Assembly (NCBI GenBank): GCA_003225215.1
Contig: QIBC01000092.1
Coordinates: forward strand, 1 to 32,907
From: Acidobacteriota bacterium
GTDB lineage: Bacteria; Acidobacteriota; Terriglobia; Terriglobales; Acidobacteriaceae
Direction: 5' to 3'
DNA length: 32,907 nt
Part shown: positions 3,578 to 32,907 of the stretch, piece after piece
How positions within the stretch are numbered: position 1 is the first letter of the stretch
Layout: every line of letters begins with the position of its first letter
The notes under the pieces: model-generated
The model's database searches: none
What the model saw: the letters and a program-made list of their open reading frames with translations, nothing else
Told to the model about the DNA's origin: nothing
Translations under genes and position numbers: made by a program

Positions 3578-3683
3578 GGTAGAGACGCAGCATGCTGCGT
3601 CTCCTCCATATTGCCTAGAGAACACCACTGAGCATGGGCTGACGAAAGCTTATCGCGAAGACGCAGCATGCTGCGTCTCTACC
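3578..3683. repeat. Palindrome-bounded intergenic element, locus 1 (106 bp)
   Basis: Left end GGTAGAGACGCAGCATGCTGCGTCTC (3578-3603); right end GACGCAGCATGCTGCGTCTCTACC (3660-3683). Confidence 0.85.
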
Positions 3684-6406: not shown

Positions 6407-6553
6407 GCCGGGAAAGAGCGAACACGAAGGTCACAAAGGCAAAACATGAGGTCACAGAGTACGCAGGAATCATTTCCGGGCTGCCGATTAGATTCTTCGA
6501 GCGACTTCTTCTTTGCCTCCGTGAACTTCGTGTTCGCTCCTTCCCGGGGCTCA
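6404..6553. repeat. Long inverted-repeat (hairpin) element, family B copy 1
   Basis: TGAGCCGGGAAAGAGCGAACACGAAGGTCACAAAGGCAAA at the left; near-complementary TTTGCCTCCGTGAACTTCGTGTTCGCTCCTTCCCGGGGCTCA at the right. Confidence 0.8.
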
Positions 6554-22526: not shown

Positions 22527-22721
22527 GGTAGAGACGCAGCATGCTGCGTCTTTCACCATGCCGCGTGAGAGTGGAAAAAGAATGGGATGCGCTGGCCCTA
22601 CTCGCCTTCGGCCCGAAGCCTAAGATTATCGGATCTGCCTGAACCCTTTGCTTTCGAACACTTGGCGCGCTCAACGAGTGCTGCCATCTGACGCGATGAC
22701 GCAGCGTGTTGCGTCTCTACC
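22527..22721. repeat. Palindrome-bounded intergenic element, locus 2 (195 bp)
   Basis: Left GGTAGAGACGCAGCATGCTGCGTC (22527-22550); right GACGCAGCGTGTTGCGTCTCTACC (22698-22721). Confidence 0.85.
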
Positions 22722-28555: not shown

Positions 28556-28717
28556 TTTCACCACGGAGACACGGAGGCGCGGAGTACACCGGAGGTTTAA
28601 ACCACAGAGGACATGAAGTATCACGAAGGAGTTCGGATTTGAAGATTTTGTATTCCTTTGTGTTTCTTCGTGTCCTCTGTGGTTTCATCCGGCTGTTCTC
28701 CCGGTTTCCGTGGTGAA
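28556..28717. repeat. Long inverted-repeat element, family C (CCACGGAGACACGGAG / ACCACAGAGGACA)
   Basis: TTTCACCACGGA (28556-28567) vs TCCGTGGTGAAA (28706-28717); AAACCACAGAGGACATGAAG (28599-28618) vs CTTCGTGTCCTCTGTGGTTT (28666-28685). Confidence 0.85.
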
Positions 28718-29011: not shown

Positions 29012-29030
29012 CGCCAGCTAGCATGGATGC

Positions 29031-29136
29031 GGCCGCCCTCGGCCGGGTTTTGACTTTACTGAAGGGACTCACTTTTGACAGTCAACGAAACGACAGATTT
29101 ACAAAGTCTGAAGCAAACACCCGGCCGAGGGCGGCC
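29031..29136. repeat. Inverted repeat GGCCGCCCTCGGCCGGGT spanning the 5' end of the polyprenyl synthase gene
   Basis: GGCCGCCCTCGGCCGGGT at 29031-29048; exact reverse complement ACCCGGCCGAGGGCGGCC at 29119-29136. Confidence 0.9.
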
Positions 29137-30052
29137 GGATCCACCGAATGGCCCATCGCTCAACGACACGCTCGCCTCTGGCTGTGCACTGATCGATTCC
29201 ACGCTCGATCGCCTTCTGCCCGCTGAAACGCAGATTCCTACATCCATACACAAAGCCATGCGCCATAGTGTTTTTGCCGGTGGCAAGCGGCTGCGTCCGA
29301 TTCTGTGCATGGAAGCGGCTCGCATGGTGCAGCGCGAGCTTCCCGCCGGCGAGCTGCCAAGTGGAGTTGAAGACCTGGGCAGCGCCCTCGAAATGCTGCA
29401 CACGTACTCGCTAATTCACGACGACCTTCCGGCGCTCGACAACGACGATCTGCGTCGAGGCAAGCCCACCTGTCACGTGGTATTCGGCGAGGATATTGCA
29501 ATTCTCGCCGGTGACGCTCTTCAGACCCATGCCTACGAAGTACTGAGCAAGTTGCCCTGTGCACCGCAGGCCCGCATACGCATCGTCGGAGAAATTGCTC
29601 GCGGCACCGGGACCATCGATGGAATGATCGGAGGCCAAGTGATGGACCTCGAGGCGGAGAACACGCGCGCAGATGCCGCCACTGTTGAATACATCCACCG
29701 CTCAAAAACCGGAGCGCTGATCACCGCCAGCCTGACAACAGGTGGCATTTACGCGGGAGGCACTCGCGAGGAGATCGAAAGACTGCGCGAGTTTGGCCAG
29801 GCGATCGGTCTGGCATTCCAGATCGTCGATGATGTGCTTGATGTGACGAAATCTTCTGCGGAACTCGGGAAAACCGCAGGAAAAGACACCGCGTCCGACA
29901 AGGCGACCTATCCCGCGGTATTTGGTATTGAAGAGTCTCTACGCCGCGCAGATGCGCTTATTGTTCGGGCTTGTGAGGCGCTTGATCCATTCGGCAATCG
30001 CAGTGAAACCCTGCGATCACTGGCGCATTTTCTTGTAGAGCGCAAGAGCTAA
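29075..30052 (+). CDS. ispA: Polyprenyl (farnesyl/geranylgeranyl) diphosphate synthase
   Basis: GGKRLRPILCMEAA, LEMLHTYSLIHDDLPALDNDDLRRGKPTCH (DDxxxxD), FQIVDDVLDVTKSSAELGKTAGKDTASDKATYPAVFG. TTG start uncertain. Confidence 0.9.
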   Translation: MTVNETTDLQSLKQTPGRGRPDPPNGPSLNDTLASGCALIDSTLDRLLPAETQIPTSIHKAMRHSVFAGGKRLRPILCMEAARMVQRELPAGELPSGVEDLGSALEMLHTYSLIHDDLPALDNDDLRRGKPTCHVVFGEDIAILAGDALQTHAYEVLSKLPCAPQARIRIVGEIARGTGTIDGMIGGQVMDLEAENTRADAATVEYIHRSKTGALITASLTTGGIYAGGTREEIERLREFGQAIGLAFQIVDDVLDVTKSSAELGKTAGKDTASDKATYPAVFGIEESLRRADALIVRACEALDPFGNRSETLRSLAHFLVERKS

Positions 30053-32002: not shown

Positions 32003-32449
32003 TCATAACCAGCGGGTCATTAGATGCCGATCATGATCTCGAAAGCCGAGACGCTTGTAGAACTCGTGTCCCCGCGTATTGAAGTGATCTGCTTCGAGAT
32101 GCACAGCTTCGATTCCGAGCTCGCGGCAGGTCTTGATCGCGAAGTCGACGGCTACTCGCCCAATTCCCTGCGCGCGTCGCTCTGGCTTGACGTAGAACTC
32201 ATCGATGAAACAATCGCGACCGTGGAACTCGAGAGAGAATCCGAAGCCTAGCACCATGTAGCCGGCTAGCTGCTGGCAGTGTTCAAACAAGATCAGTCGA
32301 CCAAGATTTTTGTCTTCGATCAATTCTGTCAAAAGGCTCTTAAGCCGAGTCTCGTCATAGGGCAGACGCTCGAACGAATAGAAATCTCGCATCAACGGGA
32401 GTAGCCCATCGATATCCGAGAGGCGACCGAATCGGAAGGAGACGTTCAT
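32003..32449 (-). CDS. GNAT family N-acetyltransferase
   Basis: FIDEFYVKPERRAQGIGRVAVDFAIKTCRELGIEAVHLEADHFNTRGHEFYKRLGFRDHDRHLMTRWL. ATG 32449 preferred; the longer ORF runs into the repeat. Confidence 0.9.
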   Translation of the reverse strand: MNVSFRFGRLSDIDGLLPLMRDFYSFERLPYDETRLKSLLTELIEDKNLGRLILFEHCQQLAGYMVLGFGFSLEFHGRDCFIDEFYVKPERRAQGIGRVAVDFAIKTCRELGIEAVHLEADHFNTRGHEFYKRLGFRDHDRHLMTRWL

Positions 32450-32451
32450 AC

Positions 32452-32876
32452 GGTAGAGACGCAGCATGCTGCGTCTCCGCTAGGCTGCCTGATTACAGCG
32501 CGCAGCGTAGTGTGAATGTGCTTCGCAGAGACGCAGCATGCAGCAGGCCTGTCTAAATTAACTCCTGCGAAGAGCATCGCCCGAGAGCAGTGCCGCGCCT
32601 CTTGCGGCATAGTTGAGAATAGCCCGGTGGTGCAACCCCAGGTGAACTGTCGGAAATCGAGTCCGGCTTTTTGCCGGACGGCTAAATTGCCTTTCCCGTC
32701 GGAAATCAAATCCAATCGTCCCGCAAACGACGCGGGACTCGAACACAAAATGCGCCAACCGGAGTTTCACTCCGGGCTATTCTGGGGCTATTCTCAACCG
32801 TGCCGCAAGAAGCGCGGCACTTCTCGGGGATGCCACGGCAAATTTGGACAAGCCTGCAGCATGCTGCGTCTCTACC
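32452..32876. repeat. Palindrome-bounded element, locus 3 (425 bp), containing a ~350-bp inverted-repeat element
   Basis: Left GGTAGAGACGCAGCATGCTGCGTCTC (32452-32477); right GCAGCATGCTGCGTCTCTACC (32856-32876). Inner GAGACGCAGCATGCAGCAGGCCTGTCTAAATT (from 32527) is near-complementary to AATTTGGACAAGCCTGCAGCATGCTGCGTCTC (ending ~32873). Confidence 0.8.
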
Positions 32877-32907
32877 AGCAACATCACCGCGCTACCCGCA
32901 GCCGATG

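Follow-up and report, generated by a model that had tools for sequence, protein, structure and literature searches.

At the right-hand end of the window, which is the whole 32,907-nucleotide stretch of DNA that was analysed, a GNAT acetyltransferase gene lies beside a set of nested inverted repeats whose parts are listed in Table 1. Two sets of complementary arms were found between 32516 and 32884: an inner pair of 41 nt (32585-32625 and 32785-32825) which is 90% complementary, and an outer pair of 44 nt (32516-32559 and 32841-32884) which is 82% complementary. Folded as DNA, 32528-32872 makes a single long hairpin of -117.8 kcal/mol (z = -12.0), and as RNA it reaches -208.1 kcal/mol (z = -15.2), with no shuffled sequence as stable in either case. 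The long hairpin and the near-complementary internal arms of the original prediction are therefore real, and the fold is far beyond chance. The prediction had also placed the element directly at the GNAT start codon, which is right for the outer palindrome only, the inner element beginning about 95 bp upstream of the start. The right flank of this copy stops at the contig end.

Table 1. Features of the nested element and of the adjoining gene in the window. D is the repeated palindrome described in the text.
Feature	Position	Strand	Evidence or remark
GNAT acetyltransferase gene	32006..32449	-	PF00583, E 3e-16; orthologues in five same-genus genomes; start codon 3 bp from first D
First D palindrome, GTAG-type, REP-like, complete, 2 mismatches to consensus	32453..32480	.	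D at same place in G108, decayed in G054
Left arm of second D (GCAGAGACG), split by MITE	32525..32533	+	sequence
Target-site duplication, left 10-bp copy (CAGCATGCAG, one mismatch)	32534..32543	+	
MITE core, 313 bp in this copy, terminal repeats CAGGCCTGTCTAAATTAA / AAATTTGGACAAGCCTG, no transposase gene	32544..32856	.	
Payload stem-loop A	32590..32610	+	
Payload stem-loop B	32620..32643	+	
Payload stem-loop C (GTCCGGC..GCCGGAC)	32661..32679	+	
Payload stem-loop C' (GTCCCGC..GCGGGAC)	32718..32738	-	
Payload stem-loop B'; extra GGGGCTATTCT directly after, not in other aligned copies	32757..32779	-	
Payload stem-loop A'	32800..32820	-	
Target-site duplication, right 10-bp copy (CAGCATGCTG)	32857..32866	+	
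Right arm of second D (CGTCTCTAC)	32867..32875	+	sequence

The outermost layer is formed by D, a 28-bp repeated palindrome with the structure GTAGAGACG-CAGCATGCTG-CGTCTCTAC, which often occurs in pairs like a REP dimer. Its 20-base core has 275 forward-strand matches genome-wide at up to 2 mismatches, and at up to 5 mismatches there are 12 in 157 kb of sampled contigs, the genome-wide counts resting on searches together with sampled regions. D is thus a high-copy short palindrome with a GTAG end and frequent dimers, as expected of a GTAG REP. In other genera the GTAG end of the palindrome is unpaired, as in GTAG-AGACGCAGC-TT-GCTGCGTCTC. In the genome G025, of another genus, the palindrome stands in a tight inverted pair with a sister form, GTAGAGACGTTGC..GCAACGTCTC. 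A literature search with the letters of the palindrome gave no match. Two more outward-facing D dimers occur in the window at 3579-3682 and 22528-22720, both without the inner element; they are unoccupied targets and presumably correspond to the first two loci of the original prediction. Other inverted repeats of 33-37 bp, at 28594-28690, 29024-29143 and 6408-6547, are unrelated to D. At the present locus the prediction had seen outward-facing palindromes on both sides. Only one of these is complete; what was read as the right-hand one is one half of another palindrome, split by the element.

The boundaries of that element were found by comparing its copies. BLASTN against its own genome returned 96 matching pieces, of which about 25 are long copies (79-88% identity), so the interior is repeated rather than unique; it is not conserved as coding sequence. 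In a boundary alignment of 22 copies with flanks, four (L047, L050, L051 and L053) were without the GAGACGCAGCATGC part and started at or beside CAGGCCTGTCCAAATTA. Outside D, these four carry matching 10-bp flanks: TGTAGAACGC at L047, CCGTTCACCC at L050, CTTGGCATCG at L053 and GGCCCRCGAC at L051. The element proper is thus the inner unit, a non-coding core of about 305 bp with terminal repeats CAGGCCTGTCCAAATTA. Where the palindrome is present, GTAGAGACG-CAGCATGCTG precedes the unit and CAGCATGCTG-CGTCTCTAC follows it, which places the unit in the centre of D with the 10 central bases duplicated. The termini of about 32 bp that had been read as one unit consist instead of a REP half, a 10-bp target duplication and the true terminal repeat (CAGGCCTGTCTAAATTAA at 32544).

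The target duplications have a fixed length of 10 bp (9-11) when set against mispaired controls. Among the non-D copies (n = 10) the duplication is perfect in 5, has one mismatch in 1 and two mismatches in 3, and none of 90 mispaired flank controls had fewer than 2 mismatches. End-like matches fell inside D in 75 of 132 cases, the others including weak chance matches with 3 mismatches as well as D insertions offset by one base; counted as elements, with the offset copies assigned by eye, D holds about 32, and about 10 lie elsewhere. Some sites have private variants of D on both sides of the insert (CAGCCTGCTG twice at L238, and partly at L035, L036 and L242), which is what separate duplication at each site would produce. 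At L038 and L049 two MITEs stand in tandem in one D. In four copies (L046, L048, L049 and L053) the left and right subterminal segments have changed places with respect to the interior, which looks as though it had been inverted between its repeats.

The target is shared by other families. Together with the one of about 305 bp, a second family of about 253 bp with ends CAAGCTTGTCCAAATTAGC makes a group of short, non-coding MITE families with terminal inverted repeats of at least 17 bp, and it too sits in D centres. The same ends, again in D but around different interiors, are found in G108, of the same genus, on elements of about 230-260 bp, and in G003, of another genus, on a 262-bp element.

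Sites of insertion were also compared with relatives. For L034 and L040, the empty sites predicted by joining the flanks at one duplication match the same-genus genomes G108 and G054 across the junction at 85, 82, 79 and 75% identity. At the L034 site G108 has a perfect D, GTAGAGACGCAGCATGCTGCGTCTCTAC, with no MITE, and the three other orthologous sites have D with small changes and no MITE. On these alignments, D is older than the MITE at the two comparable loci. The GNAT orthologues of G108 and G054 are each accompanied by a single D, placed like the first palindrome of the window, and lack the MITE; those of G154, G135 and G171 have neither. Both the duplications and the empty sites that the original prediction had proposed looking for were therefore found, the latter at two other loci.

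We consider it likely, with a probability of roughly 0.8, that a REP-like palindrome was already present at the locus and that a non-autonomous DNA transposon (MITE) inserted itself into its symmetry centre. In a rival version the whole unit, including the GAGACGCAGCATGC ends, is a single MITE with the palindrome halves for termini, as the original prediction described it, and moves as a whole. Most copies do have D halves at both ends, and the halves resemble 32-bp inverted termini, but copies outside D have no halves, and in them the 10-bp duplications adjoin the inner ends directly. The same halves also surround MITE interiors that are unrelated to one another, and the sister-species sites which keep D without an insert already contradict this version, leaving it very improbable. 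The MITE-like character given in the prediction stands (multiple copies, no coding sequence, terminal inverted repeats, 10-bp duplications, filled and empty orthologous sites), but its outer palindrome serves as the target, and the interior hairpins most likely come from a different transposon class.

Within the MITE ends lies a payload, which is a mirror array of stem-loops running A-B-C and then C'-B'-A', where A is GTGCCGCG..CGGCAC, B is TAGCCCGG..CCGGGT and C is GTCCGGC..GCCGGAC. At Y1_Tnp (PF01797) loci of related genomes, the gene is flanked by inverted B or C pairs (L119, L133, L118 and L128). At L118, L128 and L119, in three genomes, the modules are ordered A-B-C-gene-C'-B'-A', so that the ordered end modules of the payload flank Y1 transposase genes there, and these genes match the IS200/IS605 TnpA model. 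A near-identical junction text, GCGG.ACGGTTGAGA.TAGCCC, is common to L118 and the MITE, and module density is 0.71 per kb near Y1 genes and 0.087 per kb farther out. The gene at L067 matches the model for REP-associated tyrosine transposases (RAYTs), and its ends match the payload of the G108 MITE (E 4e-12). G135 has A-to-A' arrays without MITE ends, and the G108 example is less regular. Because the layout of the array is that of the ends flanking Y1/HUH (IS200-like) genes, the most likely source of the payload is a Y1 element whose gene was lost and which came to lie within MITE ends. This descent is supported by the sequences but not proven, since a direct BLASTN comparison of the 305-bp payload with Y1 ends yields short matches (E 7e-4 to 0.03).

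A Y1 gene with D at its ends was also looked for. Among 40 Y1 loci from 11 genomes, a subset of the Y1 genes, none had D or its half-site directly at the gene ends, and the sole D near a scanned Y1 gene (L061) is about 700 bp away. These scans bear on another explanation, in which the structure is like a REPIN or BIME and was spread by a RAYT without any DDE-type step. The likeness of D to GTAG REPs, its outward-facing dimers and the payload modules flanking Y1 genes would all fit, but no examined Y1 gene has a D half-site close by, and 10-bp duplications are, to our knowledge, not expected from Y1 transposition. A RAYT origin therefore seems very improbable, if slightly less so than a single composite MITE.

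A search for an autonomous element of 0.8-3 kb bounded by MITE ends (CARGCYTGTCCAAATTA repeats) found none in this genome or in those of five relatives, all draft assemblies, the own assembly being 88% complete and broken at repeats. One 2.2-kb candidate, on contig C256 of G000, carries genes for a transposase of the IS1595 family and for a DUF3800 protein. Its ends, GGTGATAATATACTTGAC, are not those of the MITE and lie inside a MITE copy, and one sits directly inside the end of a 253-bp MITE. Where homologues of this IS have clear ends, these resemble GGTAATAATATACTTGAC, and the duplications are mostly of 8 bp. Because of its position just inside the MITE end and the different ends and mostly 8-bp duplications of its homologues, the C256 element is a later guest nested in the MITE and was rejected as the parent. 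The ISAs1 family was considered because of the duplication length, and was also rejected: its PF13808 transposase is in 0 of 6 genomes (the own genome and the genus). A scan of genome contigs with GGCCTGTCCAAATTAA gave matches across phyla, apparently by chance.

Some further observations were made on the IS1595 elements. At L233 2077 (C256) and L335 ~202 (contig C43 of G000), IS1595-type ends (GGTGATAATATACTTGAC and GGCAATAATATACTTGAC) lie directly inside the MITE end CCAAATTAG, and a related IS1595 copy at L267 has the duplication CTAATTTG, the same word as the MITE end. Together these suggest that IS1595 elements may favour MITE ends. The DUF3800 gene, at L233 3305-4240 downstream of the IS1595 transposase, is possibly a passenger of that IS.

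In the mechanism proposed for the MITE, a Y1 element would have lost its gene and become enclosed by MITE ends, forming the payload. A cut-and-paste transposase making target duplications of about 10 bp would act in trans, recognising the MITE ends and favouring D at its palindromic centre, which it might read as a cruciform. What the copies themselves show is that the MITE with CAGGCCTGTCCAAATTA terminal repeats enters the D centre and duplicates the 10 bp CAGCATGCTG, as in some 30 copies, and that other copies lie outside D with 10-bp duplications of their own. A broader possibility, put forward tentatively and held to be rather less probable than its opposite, is that a cut-and-paste transposase recognises the REP-like symmetry centre, possibly as an extruded cruciform, and that the palindromes serve as docking sites for several MITE families carrying HUH end payloads. 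Two unrelated transposition systems would then share one nested repeat landscape in at least two genera.

The hairpin of about 350 bp is a by-product of three nested inverted-repeat layers, namely the D palindrome, the MITE and the stem-loop payload, and it probably has no dedicated function. Its very stable predicted fold and its position upstream of a gene could instead indicate a structured RNA or a regulatory element of the GNAT gene. However, an Rfam search gave no match near threshold, the element is missing at this locus in relatives, copies adjoin unrelated genes, and changes on both sides that keep the pair occur in only 5 of 95 consensus pairs, so that such a role seems very improbable, and the least probable of the explanations considered. 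A class of long 'hairpins' in these genomes would accordingly be stacked mobile elements and not RNA genes, with bacterial repeats nesting inside one another. The locus is a clear example from nature of MITEs docking in a REP-like palindrome, with a 10-bp duplication at its axis, and the filled and empty orthologous sites can be used for dating insertions. It also cautions that termini drawn by eye can merge a target with an element.

Earlier work has described GTAG REPs and the dimers they form, as well as tyrosine transposases whose ends are long and inverted (Di Nocera et al. 2013, PMC3733652). D is like the GTAG-tagged REPs of that paper in its GTAG start, palindromy, high repetition and outward-facing dimers, but this genus has many perfect D palindromes with GTAG at both ends, and no RAYT with D at its ends was found among the 40 Y1 loci scanned. 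The TIRtrons/TIRYT tyrosine transposases of the same paper are Y1 genes with inverted self-complementary ends; the payload is alike in layout, but is gene-less and lies within MITE ends. REPs are also known as precise targets of insertion sequences, and Tobes and Pareja (2006, PMC1525189) describe fixed-point insertion into REPs by ISPsy8, ISRm22 and ISPpu9/10, as at D, with ISPsy8 and ISRm22 at the palindrome axis. In the cases drawn on here, those elements bear genes and make duplications of 0-6 bp, whereas the present ones are non-coding and make 10 bp. Bacterial MITEs are likewise short and non-coding, with inverted ends, target duplications and dozens of copies, but the present ones strongly target the centre of a different repeat, and no IS was found that could be their parent. 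Each nested layer (REP-like palindrome, MITE and Y1-type ends) is thus of a known kind, and what is new, as far as these searches show, is a group of MITEs with 10-bp duplications which targets the axis of a REP-like palindrome and carries an HUH-type payload inside.
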